Source: a virus
Direction: 5' to 3' (one strand)
Length of the DNA stretch: 64,000 nucleotides
IMG/VR virus record: IMGVR_UViG_3300013126_000031
Span: 1-64,000 of that record
The position numbers and the translations under genes are program-made. The notes beneath the pieces are model-generated. The model was not told the origin of the DNA and ran no database searches. It saw only the letters and a program-made list of their open reading frames with translations. Below are positions 1,190-55,114 of this stretch, in pieces. Numbering within the stretch: position 1 is the first letter of the stretch; each line of letters opens with the position of its first letter.

Positions 1190-1192
1190 TTG

Positions 1193-1270
1193 TACAGCGT
1201 GTAGGACTCGAACCTACGCCCCATCCACCAGTTAAAACCAGCAGTGCTCTACCAGCTGAGCTAACGCCAT
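1193..1270 (-). tRNA. tRNA-Lys(TTT)-like with extended anticodon stem
   Basis: The acceptor ATGGCGT/ACGCTGT, the D-arm (GCTC, GAGC) and the T-arm (GTAGG, TTCGAGT, CCTAC) are sound. The anticodon arm is unusual: CTGCTGG can pair with CTGGTGG over 7 bp, leaving loop TTTTAA. TTT (Lys) is the most likely anticodon. The gene is about 5 nt longer than normal. CCA is not encoded. Confidence 0.6.
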
Positions 1271-34533: not shown

Positions 34534-34582
34534 ATAATTTCATTTCTCGTGGCGTGTTGTTTGAGAATGAATCTGTTAGAAG

Positions 34583-34936
34583 TGGAGATAATGGGATTCG
34601 AACCCATGTGTTGAATATTCTTCGATGCTTTCTACATGTTTAGGTCATGATTTTCTAACCATCCGAAACTTTCCTTAATTTTATAGTGGTTTTGGTTCCA
34701 CTAGTATTCATACCATAGATGGTTTACCATCATCTCGTTAGTGGATTACCACTATCAGCAGTGTTAGGCAACTGCAAGCTCTCCGTTAGAAACGAATGTC
34801 GCTTCGTCAAGGAAATTTTCTGATACGATTAAATCGTTGTCATTTCTTGTTCTAATAGTATTTTTTAAAGTGCTTCCAATCTAGCACTACATGCTTACTA
34901 CCTACGACTATACCCAGTCAATACCGTCATATCCCC
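34583..34936 (-). ncRNA. ssrA: tmRNA (one-piece)
   Basis: The 354-nt RNA starts GGGGATATGACGGTATTGAC and ends with a T-arm (ATGGG-TTCGAAT-CCCAT), TATCTCC and discriminator A. GGGGATA pairs with TATCTCC. In the middle an open tag frame ends ...GELAVA-stop at 34764 and begins about NDNDLIVSENF near 34844, so the tag is long (up to about 27 residues). Several pseudoknot-type hairpins follow. CCA is not encoded. With host SmpB it would rescue stalled ribosomes and tag phage or host proteins. Confidence 0.9.
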
Positions 34937-43244: not shown

Positions 43245-43463
43245 TTATAACGTTCTAAAAATTTTTTTAAAGAAATTTGAAACCTTTTTATACCATGGTT
43301 GTTTAAGTATTTTGACTTTGTTTGGGTTCTTTTTTATTTCATCACCTAAACCATTTTTTAAATCCCCAATAAATTTTTTCTTTCTAATTTCTGTCATAAA
43401 CATATCGGCTTTAATTTCATTTTCGATTTGTTTAATTTCTTTATCAATCATTTTATCATTCAT
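43245..43463 (-). CDS. Small charged protein, 72 aa
   Basis: MNDKMIDKEIKQIENEIKAD, a charged helix followed by a lysine-rich tail (WYKKVSNFFKKIFRTL). Overlaps the Nudix gene by 4 nt. Confidence 0.6.
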   Translation of the reverse strand: MNDKMIDKEIKQIENEIKADMFMTEIRKKKFIGDLKNGLGDEIKKNPNKVKILKQPWYKKVSNFFKKIFRTL

Positions 43464-44017
43464 ATCCTATTAATTTTTTCAGCTAAACCTTTATATAACG
43501 GTGTTGGTAATTTATTTTTAGAAAACCAACCATAGTTTAAATTTTCATGGTCTAATTTAGGGATAAATTCTGACATTGTAAACCCTTTATAATAGTGAAA
43601 ATTTCTATTTTTCTCTGGTATATATTCTGTTCTGTCGTATTCAAATTGAATTAACTTGTCAGCATCTATACTTAATTCTTCACCTATTTCTCTGATAAGT
43701 GTATCAACTGGTTTTTCACCTTCATCCATACCACCAGACATAAGAGCCCATTTAGGGCTAGGGTCATTTCTATAAAGTAAAAAAACACGATTAGTTGTTA
43801 AGCATTTAATTAATACACCAGCAACATTCTGTTCACCTTCCGATTCATTCAATGTTTCATCATCGTATGGTGGTTCATTATCGTGACCACATTTATGACA
43901 AACATATAAATCAGATTTGTCTGATTCTGAAGCGTTCCAATGCCAATCACAAGCTTCACACGTTATGGTGAAATCTTTTATCGCCTCTTTTAATAAATTC
44001 TTAATAAGTGTTTTCAT
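43460..44017 (-). CDS. Zinc-ribbon Nudix hydrolase
   Basis: Residues 20-45 are a zinc ribbon (CEACDWHW ... CHKCGHD), and residues 65-185 a Nudix domain with box SGGMDEGEKPVDTLIREIGE then ELSI. The first 13 residues, MKTLIKNLLKEAI, match the shared capsid-targeting type with LKE. A late-type box at 44030-44038 precedes it. A packaged Nudix enzyme acting early on capped or alarmone nucleotides is a possibility. Confidence 0.8.
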   Translation of the reverse strand: MKTLIKNLLKEAIKDFTITCEACDWHWNASESDKSDLYVCHKCGHDNEPPYDDETLNESEGEQNVAGVLIKCLTTNRVFLLYRNDPSPKWALMSGGMDEGEKPVDTLIREIGEELSIDADKLIQFEYDRTEYIPEKNRNFHYYKGFTMSEFIPKLDHENLNYGWFSKNKLPTPLYKGLAEKINRI

Positions 44018-47324: not shown

Positions 47325-47936
47325 TTATTTTATGTCAGTTGAATTTAATAAAGTATATGAGAAAGAATTACCATGTATCTTAGCCGCTCTTCTTACTATA
47401 ACCATAAACGCATCAAAATCCATAGCTCTTTTGAATACTTGACAACCAGCACTCCAGTTTTCAACCCATGTAGAATCTCTACCAGCTTTGTGTATATTTA
47501 TACCGTAAATACCTTCAGTTATTTTGTTCTCATCATATTCTAAATCAAAATCAGCATCACGGTAAACTTTAACTTTACCATTTCTTTGACATAACGCATC
47601 GTATTTACCTTGATGTTTATCAATCTTCCATGTACTTCTATATTGACCTTCCACCAATCTGGCACAACCACCGCTAATACCCATTTTGTTCCATTCTAAC
47701 ATTGATTTTTTACCTGGGTCGGTTGTTGCCGCCCATGCGTAAAATTGCCAAACACCCTTCTCATCTTTAAACGATACTGTCAATGTGTCATCAAATACGT
47801 TAGTAACTTTTTTACCAGTAGCGGCATTTCTAATACCTACAATATTAACATCATAAGTTTTGTTAGCGTCATCATTAAACCATTTAAAACCTTTAGCTTC
47901 TACAGCCGCTTTGATTTGTTCTCTTGTGTAACTCAT
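47325..47936 (-). CDS. L,D-transpeptidase-like fold protein
   Basis: 203 residues. IYGINIHKAGRDSTWVENWS with AGCQVF gives the H...S.GC arrangement of YkuD-type enzymes. Phage proteins of this kind may act on peptidoglycan. It ends a four-gene run that includes the two-component system. A cell-wall role is inferred, not proven. Confidence 0.65.
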   Translation of the reverse strand: MSYTREQIKAAVEAKGFKWFNDDANKTYDVNIVGIRNAATGKKVTNVFDDTLTVSFKDEKGVWQFYAWAATTDPGKKSMLEWNKMGISGGCARLVEGQYRSTWKIDKHQGKYDALCQRNGKVKVYRDADFDLEYDENKITEGIYGINIHKAGRDSTWVENWSAGCQVFKRAMDFDAFMVIVRRAAKIHGNSFSYTLLNSTDIK

Positions 47937-47937
47937 A

Positions 47938-48495
47938 TTATTTCTTTTTATCCATTTTATCTGAGGCGTATTTCACCCCCATTATTGTACCTATTATACT
48001 AAAACTGTTTGTTAACAAAATACCAAACATATTCGCCCATGATGATTCAATTATCGTTGAATCACCACCTATACTAATTATGTAAATATATATGGCTGTT
48101 GTTATAACACCAACACCTATTATAATCGATAGAGCTATTTTTACTGTTAAACCTATCAATTCAAATTGAGTTCTTCTTTGAAGTAAATCTAAATCACTTT
48201 CAGCTAATTCTTTTGCTTCTTTTGTTTGAGCTAACGCTATTTTAAGCTCTTCATTGATTCGCTCATTTTCTTCCTTTGCTTTTGTTAATTCAGTGTTTTG
48301 CGCTTGTACTTGTTTTGTGATTGTTAATCTTTTTCTTCTATTCTCATTATCATTTTCAATACAAGTTTCTAAATATTTTTTAAAAGCTTCATCATCAGTT
48401 TGAATTAATTTGACAATATTACCTTCTAAACCTATTTTTTTAGATTCATATAACTTTAATAACTCGGTAATTGTTTTTTTATCAAAACTTATCAT
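47938..48495 (-). CDS. Coiled-coil membrane protein
   Basis: 185 residues: soluble N-terminal part, a coiled coil at about 60-115 (KEENERINEELKIALAQTKE), then two membrane helices (VKIALSIIIGVGVITTAIYI and a second). Stop of the response regulator overlaps its start by 1 nt, so it may be the third component of the signalling module. Confidence 0.65.
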   Translation of the reverse strand: MISFDKKTITELLKLYESKKIGLEGNIVKLIQTDDEAFKKYLETCIENDNENRRKRLTITKQVQAQNTELTKAKEENERINEELKIALAQTKEAKELAESDLDLLQRRTQFELIGLTVKIALSIIIGVGVITTAIYIYIISIGGDSTIIESSWANMFGILLTNSFSIIGTIMGVKYASDKMDKKK

Positions 48496-48932
48496 TATTT
48501 GTATATTTTAAATTTGGATTTACCATTTTTATATTTATCAAAATCGGCTCTAAAAGCTTCTAATCTTGGTTCTATGTCATCTGTTTTAACAATCCAAAAT
48601 TGAGCACCAGCCTTTACTGCCTTTGCTTGTTCTTCTGGTTCATCACTAGATGAAATAATTCCAATGATAACATGATTACCATATTCAAAATTTATTCTTC
48701 TAACCAACTCGATACCGTCAAAACTAGACCCAATCATGTTTAAATCTACAAAAACACATTCTGGTCTTTCATCTGTTTTATTCTGCTCATACCATGCTTT
48801 AAACATTTTCTCAGCTTCATCTGCTGATGAAACGCTTTGTAGTGAGAGTGTAATATCTAGAAGACTGCAAGCATCTTCAAAAACTAAGTGGAATAAATCT
48901 TCATCATCCACTAATAAAATTGAATCTATCAT
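48495..48932 (-). CDS. Stand-alone response regulator receiver
   Basis: 145 residues: acidic pair DD at 9-10 (ILLVDDEDLFHL), phospho-acceptor D63 (VFVDLNM), IGIISSS with the Ser/Thr switch, and K116 (IVKTD). No output domain. It is coupled to the histidine kinase gene 2 nt upstream. It would signal by protein contact, perhaps with the coiled-coil membrane protein or the host transcription machinery. Confidence 0.92.
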   Translation of the reverse strand: MIDSILLVDDEDLFHLVFEDACSLLDITLSLQSVSSADEAEKMFKAWYEQNKTDERPECVFVDLNMIGSSFDGIELVRRINFEYGNHVIIGIISSSDEPEEQAKAVKAGAQFWIVKTDDIEPRLEAFRADFDKYKNGKSKFKIYK

Positions 48933-48934
48933 AA

Positions 48935-50695
48935 CTATTTAATTTTAATTCTAATCTTAGTCCCTTTATCTTTTTCACATGTAATACCAAAACCATGTTC
49001 TTTTAGTATTGCAACACATATGCTTAACCCTAGACCAGTTCCTGGTTCTTTTTGATTCCTTTTTCTGGAATAAGGTTTTGAATAAAGTTCGAATTCTTTT
49101 TGTGATAACCCTCTACCGTTATCTTGTACAACCAACGTATCTTCATCTTCCATGTAAATATTGATTAGTTTACTATTTGAGTCATTATACTTCAAACCAT
49201 TTCTAATTAGATTATCGATTGCTGTACAGAATAATGATTCATTCACTTCATGGTTTGGTAAATCATCTATTTTAACTTGACTTAAATAAGCTGTTGATTT
49301 TAAAAAATTAATTAATTTTTCTCTTAGATTATGATAATCTTTTGATAACACAGCATCTTTTTTAACTAGATTTGTAAATTCATAAACACCTTTGTAAACT
49401 TTTTGTGTGTGTTTCAAACCCTCTTTCAACATTTTTAACGGTGCTTCTAGTTTTAATTTATCTACCAATTCTGGTGTTAATCTTCGTTCTAACGAACTTA
49501 TACCTCTTGGGATATATGTGTTTATCCCAGAATGCATATCGTGTCTTAAAATCTTCGCAGCGTGTTCTAAATAAGTATTCTTTTTGTTTATTTCATTTAG
49601 TGATTCATATAACTCTGTTACATCTTGTCTAATTGACATAAAACCTAATAATTCACCAGTTTCTTGGTCAAAATCAGCTTTAATGTAAGTATCAACATAA
49701 TATAGTGTACCATTCTTTCTTTTATTGATAACTAAATCGTGCCAAATCTTTTTTTCAGAAACCGTTTTTTTATACATTTTAGACCAATAGTCTTTTGTTT
49801 GTATTCCAGAATTAACAATATTGTGGTCTTTACCTATTATTTCTCTTAATGAATAACCACATACTTCTGAGAATTTTTTATTAGCATATGTTATTTTACC
49901 ATGTTTATCAGTTTTTGAAATTAAAGCTGTTTCATTTACAAATTCTTCAAATTCGATAAGATTTTGTTCTACTTTTTTATTTTCTTTAACTGAATACATA
50001 AATGCAAAAATAGATGATAACATTTCTGAAAAATTAATCTCAACTTTATGCCATTCTCTTTGTTCTAATGATTCTAAACAAATAACCCCAATAACTTTAC
50101 CTTTATAGATAATTGGAACGTCCAACATAGATTTGATACCCAATGGAATTAAATATGATTCACCAAAACATTTTGTAGATTGATGTGTTAAGGCATCATC
50201 TGCAATAATTATAGGGTCAACTATCAACGAATTAAAATAAGGTTCGTAATCTTTCTTGTATAACGTAATATCTGTATACCATTTATCTTCTGATTTGATA
50301 TAAAGTTGTTCACATTCTATTGCTGTCTTATCTTCATTGTATAACCATATTGAACATCTATCCACACCAGTTGCTAACGTAACTTCTTTAGTTAAATGTT
50401 TTGACCCTTCAACTACATTACCATCATAAAATAATTGATTGTGTGATTGTTTAATCAATATTTCATTTAAATTTTTAGCGTAATAGTTTAAATTGGTAGA
50501 CTCTTTGCTTTTTCTAATGTAGTTTCTTATAAATAAAGTAGATGGTATTGAAAACAATAAAATAGTAACGTAATTAAAAACAGCCACTTCTTTACACATG
50601 GGAAAATAATCTAACATTAATAATGTATGTATTAAAATATAAAACACTATAATTGTTGAGCAAACACCTATGTATATTCTGTTTAATTTTTCCAT
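48935..50695 (-). CDS. Sensor histidine kinase with GAF and PAS domains
   Basis: 586 residues: two membrane helices at 9-28 and 39-57, a GAF domain at about 80-235, PAS with PAC at about 245-370, the H-box AAKILRHDMHSGIN near 395, and an HATPase with N box DNLIRNGLKYND, QDNGRGLS and GTGLGLSI. All parts for a functional kinase are present. Together with the receiver it makes a complete two-component system, rare in phages. It lies directly upstream of the wall-active gene set. Confidence 0.92.
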   Translation of the reverse strand: MEKLNRIYIGVCSTIIVFYILIHTLLMLDYFPMCKEVAVFNYVTILLFSIPSTLFIRNYIRKSKESTNLNYYAKNLNEILIKQSHNQLFYDGNVVEGSKHLTKEVTLATGVDRCSIWLYNEDKTAIECEQLYIKSEDKWYTDITLYKKDYEPYFNSLIVDPIIIADDALTHQSTKCFGESYLIPLGIKSMLDVPIIYKGKVIGVICLESLEQREWHKVEINFSEMLSSIFAFMYSVKENKKVEQNLIEFEEFVNETALISKTDKHGKITYANKKFSEVCGYSLREIIGKDHNIVNSGIQTKDYWSKMYKKTVSEKKIWHDLVINKRKNGTLYYVDTYIKADFDQETGELLGFMSIRQDVTELYESLNEINKKNTYLEHAAKILRHDMHSGINTYIPRGISSLERRLTPELVDKLKLEAPLKMLKEGLKHTQKVYKGVYEFTNLVKKDAVLSKDYHNLREKLINFLKSTAYLSQVKIDDLPNHEVNESLFCTAIDNLIRNGLKYNDSNSKLINIYMEDEDTLVVQDNGRGLSQKEFELYSKPYSRKRNQKEPGTGLGLSICVAILKEHGFGITCEKDKGTKIRIKIK

Positions 50696-50730
50696 TTATT
50701 GTTTTAACTATAAATATTAAAAAAAAATGA

Positions 50731-50757
50731 AAAACCCCAGCCGTAGCCAGGGTTTTA
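50731..50757 (-). terminator. Terminator after lysozyme gene
   Basis: Minus-strand AAAACCCTGGCTACGGCTGGGGTTTT. Confidence 0.85.
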
Positions 50758-50763
50758 TTAATT

Positions 50764-51225
50764 TTATTTGGTGAAATATAAATCAGCTTCTGCTTGTCTT
50801 CTTAATACCAATCCTTTTAACACTTTATTTGAAGCTTTTGTCCACTTCATAAATTCAGCTCTGATTGTTTCGTCATTAGGATTTGCATTAACTTTTTTAA
50901 GTAACGTACTACTTTTAAGATTATTTGGTCCTAAATTATAACAAAATGATACCAAAGCATCAAATTGATTTTGTGTAATCGTATCAATACAATAAGAGTC
51001 AACATATTGTTCAAATTTTGATAACATAGATTTTAATAACGCAACACCTTCTTCTTCAGTGATTGCTTTATCATTCATTGTTACTTTTTTACCATCTGGA
51101 TAAAATGTTGCACCATATCCTATAGTACAAATTTTTGCTGGACATAAATAAGGCTTACTTCTAAAACCTTCAAATTTTTTGATTAATTCGATACCTTTGG
51201 TACCAGTTTTTGTAATTTTTCCCAT
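50764..51225 (-). CDS. GH24 lysozyme (endolysin)
   Basis: 153 residues: IKKFEGFRSKPYLCPAKICT with the catalytic Glu, TIGYGATFYPDG with the G-Y-G strand, and NQFDALVSFCYNLG, all typical of T4/P21-type lysozymes. It cleaves peptidoglycan at lysis. Late-type box at 51237-51245 and terminator make it an independent late unit. Confidence 0.95.
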   Translation of the reverse strand: MGKITKTGTKGIELIKKFEGFRSKPYLCPAKICTIGYGATFYPDGKKVTMNDKAITEEEGVALLKSMLSKFEQYVDSYCIDTITQNQFDALVSFCYNLGPNNLKSSTLLKKVNANPNDETIRAEFMKWTKASNKVLKGLVLRRQAEADLYFTK

Positions 51226-51306: not shown

Positions 51307-53175
51307 TTAAAATTCTTCATCACCTTCTTCATACATACCTTCTTCATACATACCTTCTTTATACATACCTTCTTCATACATACCTTCTTCATACATACCT
51401 TCTTCATACATACCTTCTTCTAATTCATTTGCGGCTGGTTCACTTTTCTTTTTGGTTGGTTTTTTAAAATCAGCCATTATCATTGGAACTAAAGTTCTTT
51501 CAAGATAATTAAAAGCTTTATCATTAATTGAATTTACATCACCTTTTACAACCTCATATCCTTCAGCACCAACATGTATTAACACACCATCAACACCAAA
51601 TAATACCCCATTCTCATCAAATCTTTGAATATTACCAATTTGTAAAATAGCGTCTTTAATTTTTGGGTTTAAATAAGATGAAAAATTTGTTAGCTTTCTT
51701 CCATATTTTGAAGCTTTTAATTTATCATCTTTTAATTCATACCCTATTTTTTGATTCCAAGCAATATCCGCAGCTCTTGCTGCCAAACCAGTTGAGATTT
51801 CATCAATTGTTTCTTCCATCCATGATTCATTCATCGGTTCAAATTTGATACCACCTAAAACAACGCTTTCAGTTACTTCTTCTTTACCTTCAGTTTCTAA
51901 ATTAGCTTTAGATTCTTTACCCATGTGGATATGTTTTTTAGCTTCAGCAGCATGAGGAACTTTTATTTCATCCCAGTTACCTTCTTTTGTTTTACCTTTT
52001 GCAATGTTTTCAGATTCTTCCATTTCAACACCTTCTTCCATTTCAACAGATTCTTTCATTGTTACATGTTTAGTTGCTTCTGGTGCTGATTTTTTTATTT
52101 TTTCAAATTCACCAGTTTTAGGTGTTGGTGCTTCAGTTTTCTTTTCAGTCGGAACCGAACCTTCTACATGTTTTTTAGCTTCTGGTGCATGTTTAACCGC
52201 ATCGTCAGCATCACCTTCTTTTGCATCAACTGATTCGATGTCTTCCATTTCCATCAATTGTCTAGTTTTTTTCCAGATATCTGTAAATTTAGCGTTTTCA
52301 TCTAATCTAGATTTACCTTTAACAGTACCCAATGTTTCTTGAGATTTATACCCCATAAGGTGTTTCATCTTTTGCATATCTTCATTAACCAAGTTTTTGT
52401 CAGATGCCATAAGTACAACAGCTTTACCTTCAGTTAAATTACCTTCCCAACGGATTTTATAGTTTTCAACACCGTCAGTCATTTCAAATACTTTGTTATC
52501 TACTTTGTACGATTCTGGTATCATTTTAAGTGCATTTCCTACACCGTTAAACTCTTTTTTGAATTTAAGTCTTTTCATTGTTTCTTTTATTTGTGGTTTA
52601 TTGTTATCATTGTTTTCTGCTAAAGCTGAAAATCTAGCCATTGGTTTTGAACCTTTTGGTAGTGTTTCAATATCCTCACCAAAACTAATAATACCTTTTT
52701 CAGCATCAATTCTTTTTTTGAATGAAGCTTCAGCGTTTTTAACTAAATTTTTACCGAACTCTGGACCAGTGAATCCTTGTTGGGCTGGAATAACGTTAGC
52801 CCATTCATTTGAATTACCCATTCTAGCTGAACCTTCAATTGCTTCTTTTGCTCTATCTTTAAATTCTTGGATTGGGTCTCTATCATATTGAATCATCTCT
52901 TGACCATTCATGATTTCCATTTGGTTATGGAATTCAACTTCTTTATCATTTGAATAATTAAATTTATTCTCAACTTTTGTTGTATCCATACCCTTTTTTA
53001 AAGATTTTTCATAATCAGCCAAACCTTTATCCATATCTTTAACAGCTTTTTTGTTTTCTTCACCAGATTTCTTTTTAGCAGCATCAGTTACAGTAATACC
53101 TGGTGTTGCTGTTTCTTCTTTGGCTTCGTTAACAAATTTTTGTGTCAAATGTTTTTTTATTATATTTTTATCCAT
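51307..53175 (-). CDS. Large putative virion protein with EEGMY repeats
   Basis: 622 residues. N-terminus MDKNIIKKHLTQKFVNEAKE is of the shared leader type. The centre is helical and acidic with repeated PEAKKH/AAEAKKH segments. The C-terminus carries seven EEGMY-type pentapeptides before EEGDEEF, encoded by a 15-bp tandem repeat. An internal scaffold or core protein, or a surface fibre, is possible. Late-type box near 53192-53200. Confidence 0.7.
   Translation of the reverse strand: MDKNIIKKHLTQKFVNEAKEETATPGITVTDAAKKKSGEENKKAVKDMDKGLADYEKSLKKGMDTTKVENKFNYSNDKEVEFHNQMEIMNGQEMIQYDRDPIQEFKDRAKEAIEGSARMGNSNEWANVIPAQQGFTGPEFGKNLVKNAEASFKKRIDAEKGIISFGEDIETLPKGSKPMARFSALAENNDNNKPQIKETMKRLKFKKEFNGVGNALKMIPESYKVDNKVFEMTDGVENYKIRWEGNLTEGKAVVLMASDKNLVNEDMQKMKHLMGYKSQETLGTVKGKSRLDENAKFTDIWKKTRQLMEMEDIESVDAKEGDADDAVKHAPEAKKHVEGSVPTEKKTEAPTPKTGEFEKIKKSAPEATKHVTMKESVEMEEGVEMEESENIAKGKTKEGNWDEIKVPHAAEAKKHIHMGKESKANLETEGKEEVTESVVLGGIKFEPMNESWMEETIDEISTGLAARAADIAWNQKIGYELKDDKLKASKYGRKLTNFSSYLNPKIKDAILQIGNIQRFDENGVLFGVDGVLIHVGAEGYEVVKGDVNSINDKAFNYLERTLVPMIMADFKKPTKKKSEPAANELEEGMYEEGMYEEGMYEEGMYKEGMYEEGMYEEGDEEF
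51322..51420 (-). repeat. 15-bp tandem repeat encoding (E/K)EGMY pentapeptides
   Basis: ACCTTCTTCATACAT recurs about seven times in frame within the gene at 51307. Copies are nearly identical (one carries TTT instead of TTC), which implies recent slippage and variable copy number. Confidence 0.92.
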
Positions 53176-53220: not shown

Positions 53221-54864
53221 TTACTTATTCTTTTTTGATTCAATTATTCTTTTTACTTCATCTATCGTTTTACCAGTTTGTTTAGCAATAGTTTCATAGA
53301 TTTTGTTTTCAGCCAACGAAGGTGCGTTTACGCTTCCCTTAGCTTTTCTTAATTTAACAACACCATCAACTGCACCAGCACTACAACCAGCACCAGCTGG
53401 TTTATTGTTTAGTTTAGTACAATCATTAAATTCAACAAATGCACCTCCAGCATATTGTGGTGTTTTTTCAGCTTTAGTTTTACCAACATTTTTAAATTCA
53501 CCATTTCTACCTATTGGTAATGCGTTTGCATCGTATTGACCTATTGAACCTTCACCTTGTGTTGTTTCATTTAATTCTTCTTTAAATGTTCTTTTTAAAG
53601 GTTCACCAAATTTACCAACTGGTGTGTTTAATCTAGCACCAGCACCGCCACCTCCAAAAACACTAGTACCACCACCTATAGCACCAGAAGTGGTTGCTTC
53701 ATCAAAAGGTAATCTTGTTTGTGTATAATTAGGGTTTTTTGATTGTGGTAATTCTATTGTTTTACTAGTCACACCTTTAGCACTTGCAGAGTTAGCTGCA
53801 TCTCTTTGTGCAAATCTTTCAGCGTCTTGTGCTTGTGACCTAGCTCTAATTGCCGCTAATTTTTGTTTAATCATTTCTTTTTCTTCTGGTGATTTTTCTT
53901 CATAACCACTAGGTTGTTGTTTGAATGGTTCACCTAATTTAGATTTGATATCAGACATTTCCATTTCGTTAACAGCAGACAATAAAGATGTTAATTTTGT
54001 ATCTTTATCATAAAGGCTCAATAATTCATTTTTAAGCGCATCATCTATTTTAACCAATTCAACACCGTTTTCCCAATCTTCCAAACCTTCACCAGCTTCA
54101 TTTGCTATCTCGTCAGCATATGCCGCTAGTACTATTGGTTCTTGTGCTTCATTACCTCTCCAATCATAATGGTATTCAAAATCTGGCATACCATCTTCAT
54201 CTTTACCTATAAATTCTTCTTCAGCAAAACCTAAGTCATACGCTATCGAATCCAATTCTTTTTCTGGAACGTTATCATGATAAAAAGCGTATAATGAACC
54301 AGATTTATCTTTTAATAGTGCAATCTCACCATTTGAAAATAACCCTTCAAAACTTAATTTATTACTATCAATACTTGCTTTAGAATATGATGGGTCTTTT
54401 TGATTCCATGGAGCATTAGGGTCAGCATCTGCACCCATAGGATAATTATAGTTATCGTATTCAGTTATCTCACCACCAATCATTTTCGATAATTCTTCTT
54501 CTAGTTTTTCTTTAGCTTTTTCAGCTGAACCCAATGATTTAGATATTTCATACTTGCCGTCTTTTTTAATAATCATACCTTTCGATTCTAATGTTTCACA
54601 TATATCATCGTATGTTAAATCATGGTTAGCCCAAAATGGTGAAAAATCTTCACTTTTTCTGTAAAGATATTTAATAAGTTCAACAGTTTCATGTTTTAAA
54701 TCAGCGTCTGATTCTCTTATGAACTTTTTAACTTCAGAACCAGAAAAAGCCATCTTAAATGTTTTATCAACTTTTTTACCCATATTAGGTATTGCTGGCA
54801 TATTTTCATTTATTAAACTAACAATTTTATTATATTGTTCTTTGGTAATTTTTAATTTTTTCAT
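53221..54864 (-). CDS. Large putative virion protein, 547 aa
   Basis: Begins MKKLKITKEQYNKIVSLINE, again with an LxxxINE leader. Mostly acidic; a glycine- and alanine-rich central part (GAIGGGTSVFGGGGAGARLN) separates two domains. The C-terminal region has two isolated cysteines. No family recognised; promoter environment and size suggest a structural protein. Confidence 0.68.
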   Translation of the reverse strand: MKKLKITKEQYNKIVSLINENMPAIPNMGKKVDKTFKMAFSGSEVKKFIRESDADLKHETVELIKYLYRKSEDFSPFWANHDLTYDDICETLESKGMIIKKDGKYEISKSLGSAEKAKEKLEEELSKMIGGEITEYDNYNYPMGADADPNAPWNQKDPSYSKASIDSNKLSFEGLFSNGEIALLKDKSGSLYAFYHDNVPEKELDSIAYDLGFAEEEFIGKDEDGMPDFEYHYDWRGNEAQEPIVLAAYADEIANEAGEGLEDWENGVELVKIDDALKNELLSLYDKDTKLTSLLSAVNEMEMSDIKSKLGEPFKQQPSGYEEKSPEEKEMIKQKLAAIRARSQAQDAERFAQRDAANSASAKGVTSKTIELPQSKNPNYTQTRLPFDEATTSGAIGGGTSVFGGGGAGARLNTPVGKFGEPLKRTFKEELNETTQGEGSIGQYDANALPIGRNGEFKNVGKTKAEKTPQYAGGAFVEFNDCTKLNNKPAGAGCSAGAVDGVVKLRKAKGSVNAPSLAENKIYETIAKQTGKTIDEVKRIIESKKNK

Positions 54865-54871
54865 ATTAGTA

Positions 54872-55114
54872 TTAATTATTTTTATTTGACAAGTTATTAA
54901 CCCAAGTTGCCCTTTTTATCCAAAGTGTTTTGTAAAGTTGTGTTAATACATTTTTAGTTATATCAACAATTTTATCTTCCAATTCTTTTTCATTTTTAAG
55001 TCGGTCTTTGACAATTTTTTCTATTTTGTTTTTAAACTCAGAAGAATCTAAATAAACTTTTATTTGTTTATTAACATCAGTCTTTGTCATATCCTCATTT
55101 AATTTTTTTTTCAT
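54872..55114 (-). CDS. Small charged helical protein, 80 aa
   Basis: MKKKLNEDMTKTDVNKQIKV with long charged helices, ends in a hydrophobic-aromatic segment. It lies 7 nt before the 547-residue gene and shares its late promoter box at about 55128. Confidence 0.6.
   Translation of the reverse strand: MKKKLNEDMTKTDVNKQIKVYLDSSEFKNKIEKIVKDRLKNEKELEDKIVDITKNVLTQLYKTLWIKRATWVNNLSNKNN

Follow-up and report, generated by a model that had tools for sequence, protein, structure and literature searches.

A phage-specific kinase-receiver-membrane protein triad that often lies near lysis genes

Three adjacent genes for a kinase, a receiver and a membrane protein

We analysed a stretch of viral DNA of 64,000 nucleotides (positions 1-64,000 of the 64,204-base virus record IMGVR_UViG_3300013126_000031 in IMG/VR; hereafter the window). 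It carries three minus-strand open reading frames (ORFs) that encode a sensor histidine kinase (HK), a receiver protein (REC) and a membrane coiled-coil protein (MEM), together called the triad. HK and REC are spaced by two bases, while base 48495 is common to REC and MEM. An earlier note, made from the sequence alone, had described a complete two-component system at exactly these positions. The features of the triad are as follows.

48935-50695, minus strand: HK, sensor histidine kinase of 586 amino acids with two transmembrane (TM) helices, GAF, PAS and transmitter
50006-50398, minus strand: GAF domain of HK, residues 100-230 (Pfam), variable or missing among relatives
49613-49921, minus strand: PAS domain of HK, residues 259-361 (Pfam)
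48938-49612, minus strand: transmitter core of HK, residues 362-586, phospho-His hairpin plus ATPase, conserved in relatives
49541-49543, minus strand: codon of His385, predicted phosphorylation site, an invariant alignment column
48495-48932, minus strand: REC, stand-alone receiver of 145 amino acids (Pfam, alignment)
48744-48746, minus strand: codon of Asp63, predicted phosphoacceptor, invariant
47938-48495, minus strand: MEM, membrane coiled-coil protein of 185 amino acids, no known family, likely output of the receiver
48160-48390, minus strand: cytosolic coil of MEM, residues 36-112, running into TM1, with heptad-wise length variation
48103-48159, minus strand: TM1 of MEM, residues 113-131 (hydropathy)
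47974-48030, minus strand: TM2 of MEM, residues 156-174, nearly invariant

HK matched the Pfam profiles GAF (8.8e-15), PAS_9 (2e-12) and HATPase_c (4.7e-15), and its two hydrophobic stretches span residues 4-27 and 38-56. It contains an H-box (RHDMHSGIN, with H385; AKILRHDMHSGINTY around His385), an N-box (DNLIRNGLKYND) and the motifs DNGRG and GTGLGL. The two membrane helices, GAF, PAS and intact ATPase motifs ascribed to the kinase in the earlier note were thus all found. No HisKA-type Pfam profile matched HK or ten of its relatives; despite this, the phospho-His helix was invariant across the HK relatives. An AlphaFold2 model of the transmitter consisted of a helical hairpin and an ATPase domain (pLDDT 90), and the PDB structures closest to the modelled HK were solved histidine kinases. 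Judged from sequence and predicted fold, HK possesses the phospho-His helix and the N, G1 and G2 ATP motifs of a histidine kinase. The ATPase part also had a partial, distant match to phrog_857 in PHROGs (2.5e-16), a family listed as of unknown function, and the kinase matches in the phage collection consisted of PAS domains only or of distant kinases that resembled bacterial DNA in phage records.

REC matched Response_reg (8.4e-11) and contains the motifs LVDDE, VFVDLN, IISSS and IVKT. The acidic pair (D9/D10), phosphoacceptor Asp (D63), Ser/Thr (S94) and Lys (K116) of a receiver are all present, and these catalytic residues were invariant in 58 sequences. In total, 69 of the 145 residues were invariant among the 58 distinct sequences. 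Since REC is a single receiver domain without a DNA-binding output, its most likely output is the membrane protein MEM and not transcription. A PDB sequence search with REC returned only designed proteins and distant receivers, and in PHROGs it had a partial, distant match to phrog_731 (3.6e-8), again a family listed as of unknown function.

MEM had no meaningful match in Pfam, and naming it by profile was rejected because the matches were scattered coiled-coil noise. In its AlphaFold2 model (pLDDT 84), a small N-terminal helical part is followed by an uninterrupted helix (residues 36-142) that comprises the coil and TM1, and by a second helix (residues 147-184). TM2 bears the nearly invariant motif W.N..GILLTN.FSI.GTI.G.KY. 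Charges and the short loop suggest that both ends of MEM are cytoplasmic. A structure search gave long-helix noise apart from UniProt A0A6J5PRT3 of an uncultured Caudovirales phage (50% identity), the only unambiguous relative of MEM among the viral structures searched, which is uncharacterised and has no stated function. Coil lengths in 78 of 80 sequences were spaced by full heptads (52, 59, 66, 73, 80, 87 or 94 residues). By analogy with chemoreceptor coils, such in-register changes are as would be expected if the phase of the coil relative to the membrane helix matters. The stand-alone receiver and the membrane protein with a coil and two TM segments agree with what had been read from the sequence before.

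Conservation of the triad and its restriction to phages

We next considered whether the three genes are inherited as a unit. All relatives are metagenomic contigs, many of them incomplete, and their genes were called by simple ORF rules; the retrieval patterns favoured close relatives, so that the counts of relatives are lower bounds. REC lay directly upstream of MEM in 85 of the 94 dereplicated MEM loci, and among the 88 loci with room for it on that side, 87 had HK at most three genes upstream. The stop of REC and the start of MEM overlapped by four bases or one base in 75 of the 85 REC-MEM pairs, and the two are therefore probably translated together. REC and MEM were both present in four of 12 long records and both absent from the other eight. 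Pairwise dN/dS between the window and close relatives was about 0.05-0.16, as under purifying selection. Rank correlations of evolution were weak between the HK core and REC (0.26) and somewhat higher between REC and MEM (0.48), and were not used as evidence. We are highly confident that the triad is a signalling unit as such. ORFs, Pfam matches and motifs confirm the complete module that had been claimed, within which the phosphotransfer itself is a prediction.

The transmitter of HK is conserved in relatives, and the sensor part ahead of it has no recognisable domain or is PAS-PAS, GAF-PAS or GAF-PAS-PAS. Two kinases preceded a single REC in 16 loci. Every full-length copy in these loci kept the phospho-His and ATP motifs, and the second kinase usually begins with a secretion-signal-like stretch. 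A secreted coiled-coil protein (family f11; L156:7613-8230 and relatives) is encoded between both kinases of the two-kinase loci and may either partner the second kinase in the periplasm or be spanin-like. In one clade, MEM is followed by a small protein with two TM segments and a proline-rich tail (family f13; L096:5934-6473 and relatives). This protein is holin-like by shape, and its weak PHROG match is to a family of unknown function.

At least 374 stretches of IMG/VR contain a confirmed REC relative, and at least 484 a MEM relative. Neither protein had a match among 50,697 phage records, where no cultured relatives occur. Eighteen long records (110-321 kb) contained exactly one REC each, and the Gp23 capsid family was above the Pfam cut-off in eight of 12 long triad records. 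Estimating prevalence by this capsid gene was abandoned since gp23 draws in wide sister groups; the comparison therefore establishes only that the triad is patchy.

GAF-PAS histidine kinases are common in bacteria, and the triad could in principle be a recently captured host island, which, if absent from relatives, would have undone the account in the earlier note. The distribution contradicts such an origin, as hundreds of phage contigs carry the triad and bacterial genomes almost entirely lack MEM. A search with the MEM profile in 84,980 genomes, each representing one bacterial or archaeal species, yielded only one locus. This locus lies on a 16.8-kb bin contig that has other gene families in common with the viral loci and is, for this reason, probably a binned phage contig. 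When the transmitter was searched in 199 genomes of that bin's phylum alone, the best other match scored 63 bits versus 357 for the phage-like copy. Also, the base composition of the triad is the same as that of the remainder of the window. We thus reject a host-island origin, which these comparisons make extremely improbable.

The lysis neighbourhood and a proposed role

Genes for a T4-type lysozyme and another enzyme of lysis type flank the triad, in line with the position beside a lysozyme unit noted previously. The flanking features are as follows.

50764-51225, minus strand: LYZ, T4-type lysozyme/endolysin, upstream of HK (Pfam 7.9e-42, PHROGs)
50731-50756, minus strand: terminator-like hairpin in the LYZ-HK interval
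50709-50718, minus strand: AATATTTATA motif just 5' of HK, common to LYZ and other genes, possible late promoter
47325-47936, minus strand: LDT, lysis-type enzyme one base past MEM (phrog_33083, C-terminal part, and phrog_3000; IHKAG...S.GC motif)

LYZ and LDT matched one endolysin family, phrog_33083, LYZ corresponding to its N-terminal part and LDT to its C-terminal part. The IHKAG...S.GC motif suggests that LDT has a YkuD-like L,D-transpeptidase fold. Across the relatives, we counted GH19 endolysin, LDT, T4 lysozyme, PGRP-type amidase and Phage_holin_4_1-like genes as lysis families. Such genes were at most three genes from the triad in 45 of the 94 dereplicated loci. They made up 66 of the 501 genes within this distance (13%) versus 14 of the 1,531 genes farther away in the same loci (0.9%), a 14-fold enrichment with a Fisher p of 1e-28 that ignores the relatedness of the loci. 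Arrangements changed repeatedly on the triad tree (GH19 downstream 5, GH19 upstream 4, lysozyme/LDT 3, amidase/holin 4), and therefore several unrelated lysis genes came to adjoin the triad. LDT and GH19 flank the triad in loci L186, L061, L109 and L137, and are direct neighbours, 39 bases apart, in G027, a 296-kb record without REC and MEM.

The lysis region might be a mere landing place for accessory genes, with the triad a movable module that acts on another target such as host signalling, motility or secretion. This would fit the ordinary neighbours at about half of the loci, the many genomic contexts in which the triad is found, its patchy distribution among gp23 relatives and the existence of triad-free sites. 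It would not predict that lysis genes are enriched close to the triad over farther parts of the same loci, that this proximity is seen repeatedly with unrelated enzymes, or that MEM is an invariant partner, and we consider it unlikely. Because its partner MEM is invariant, the triad probably acts on this membrane protein of the phage itself.

The promoters gave a hint of when the triad may be expressed. A TATTTATA motif at -19 to -21 is common to HK and LYZ, the HK copy being 21 bases before the start, and the motif occurs 18-25 bases ahead of the lysozyme gene and several other genes. No early-type TACATTTG motif was present in the 48-64 kb part of the window. In relatives, the TATTTATA motif or its complement was found at 25 of 80 HK starts versus 2.7% of control windows, an enrichment that is an upper estimate because the control windows include coding DNA. 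This suggests that the triad is expressed from a different, perhaps late, promoter class.

We propose that the purpose of the triad is to set the timing of lysis, a reading whose chances we put at about even. HK would read the state of the infected cell via its membrane, GAF and PAS parts and autophosphorylate at His385, and the phosphate would then pass to Asp63 of REC. REC, made coupled to MEM, would most likely dock on the cytoplasmic N-terminal or coiled-coil part of MEM, from where the signal would pass through the uninterrupted coil to the pair of membrane helices and change this hairpin. MEM, whether itself a holin or antiholin or a protein that regulates one, would time the breach of the inner membrane late in infection, and the neighbouring endolysins would thereby act at the right time. 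MEM fits the outline of a holin in having two TM segments and, here, adjoining endolysins, with lysis genes near the triad at the loci counted above. A more specific version is offered tentatively, and we judge it somewhat doubtful: MEM would be a phosphorelay-gated lysis effector, that is, a holin or antiholin whose long coil is switched by the phosphorylated receiver, in a modular lysis-timing circuit with exchanged inputs and a fixed core.

Several observations, besides the relatedness of the loci, weigh against a role in lysis. No recognised lysis gene occurs within three genes of the triad in 49 of the 94 loci, where the scanned genes were ordinary phage genes (replication, nucleotide), and a search for extra lysis genes in loci without one yielded a single M15 peptidase only. 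None of 35 MEM sequences matched a holin family, and in the window the terminator-like hairpin separates LYZ from HK. Furthermore, one clade has a distinct holin-like gene alongside the triad, and the triad-free site in G027 has no holin-like gene in the triad's place, so that the idea that MEM simply replaces a holin is unsupported by this site. From the last two observations it follows that MEM need not be a holin. Considering that about half of the loci have no lysis neighbour, lysis control is the leading hypothesis and not a demonstrated function. The earlier note had proposed that the triad adjusts lysis or assembly to host physiology. Its placement in the lysis region, next to several unrelated families, held up; an effect on lysis is not established, and we found no support for assembly as the target.

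The closest functional parallel is lysis inhibition in T4, in which RI and RIII, small membrane proteins in late lysis control, pass an external event on to the holin (PMC6832632). Like T4 lysis inhibition (T, RI, RIII) and class II holins, the triad would control lysis at the membrane, and a short loop connects the two TM segments of MEM. In contrast, the triad has no sequence match to these systems, involves a kinase and a receiver, and includes a long cytosolic coil in MEM. The parallel also raises the possibility that the module senses envelope stress or superinfection and shields the infected cell, by superinfection exclusion or a delay resembling lysis inhibition, with MEM guarding the membrane rather than opening it. 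Such protection would accord with the T4-like relatives and with the relay of superinfection to the T4 holin through RI and RIII (PMC6832632), and would need no adjoining lysis gene; the secretion-signal-like N-termini of the second kinases also suggest a periplasmic input. However, the scans, which included no search for r genes by name, brought up nothing homologous to the T4 r genes, the GAF and PAS sensors in the cytosol point to internal cues too, and the frequent siting beside endolysins does not single out protection. A protective role thus appears quite improbable.

Related systems and further features of the window

The triad resembles bacterial two-component systems (Thermotoga HK853-RR468, CpxA, ZraS) in the fold of the kinase core, the ATP motifs, the phospho-His helix and the acidic pair, Asp, Ser and Lys of the receiver. 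It differs from them in that identity is about 20%, the transmitter and receiver form a phage-specific group, and REC stands alone and is paired with MEM. Like CheY-type receivers, REC is one receiver domain without an output domain, but it has no flagellar or chemotaxis partner and the coupled MEM is its presumed target. The cREC domains of jumbo phages also have a receiver-like fold and occur in large phages. They are described as never occurring with histidine kinases and as linked to NAD/ADPr enzymes (PMC7824862), whereas REC is canonical and follows a histidine kinase in nearly all loci. Assignment of REC to the cREC family was therefore rejected on gene context and the published description (PMC7824862).

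None of the open-access papers searched was found to describe a kinase-receiver module encoded by a phage, subscription papers being outside our search. While its two-component composition is itself known, the triad appears, on sequence grounds, to be a new, widespread and phage-specific version: one circuit, seen in hundreds of contigs from uncultured phages, whose core is fixed, whose sensors can be exchanged and whose membrane partner is unnamed. It would be an unusually simple two-component system, as the target of the receiver is probably a membrane coiled coil. Phages are usually seen as run by timers and as exploiting host signalling, without a complete sensor-receiver circuit of their own. 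If the triad sets the time of lysis, large phages gauge host physiology with dedicated parts, and the cue for lysis becomes testable with three genes placed in a laboratory strain.

Hints on the host point, by inference, to Bacteroidota. They include the promoter type (TTTG/TAnnTTTG, 25 occurrences versus 7.4 expected), the absence of Shine-Dalgarno-like sites (0 of 54 genes) and a type IX secretion signal domain encoded near one triad. A sigma-70 promoter scan gave no result above chance. Bacteroidota-type promoters (TTTG, about 20 bases, TACATTTG) precede many genes on the minus strand between window positions 2343 and 43012.

Other T4-type genes in the window encode a gp63-like RNA ligase, an SbcC-like nuclease subunit and a DNA ligase. 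The window also contains many tRNA genes (about 19) and a complete tmRNA gene (34580-34936, minus strand; Rfam RF00023, 65 bits). Since SmpB is encoded near the triad in one triad-bearing relative, these phages may own a ribosome-rescue pair of tmRNA and SmpB. One tRNA gene (1192-1270, minus strand) has a predicted four-base anticodon (ttta) and is possibly a frameshift suppressor or a misprediction. The lysozyme gene is adjoined by the gene for a 622-amino-acid protein (51307-53175) with the C-terminal tandem repeat EEGMYEEGMY. Lastly, a similar N-terminal stretch (MKKLKITKEQYNKIV, MKITRRQLRQLI) occurs on many otherwise unrelated proteins, in the window (53221-54864, 54872-55114 and 43460-44017) and in L373, L135 and L141, and may serve to target proteins to the capsid for packaging inside the head.
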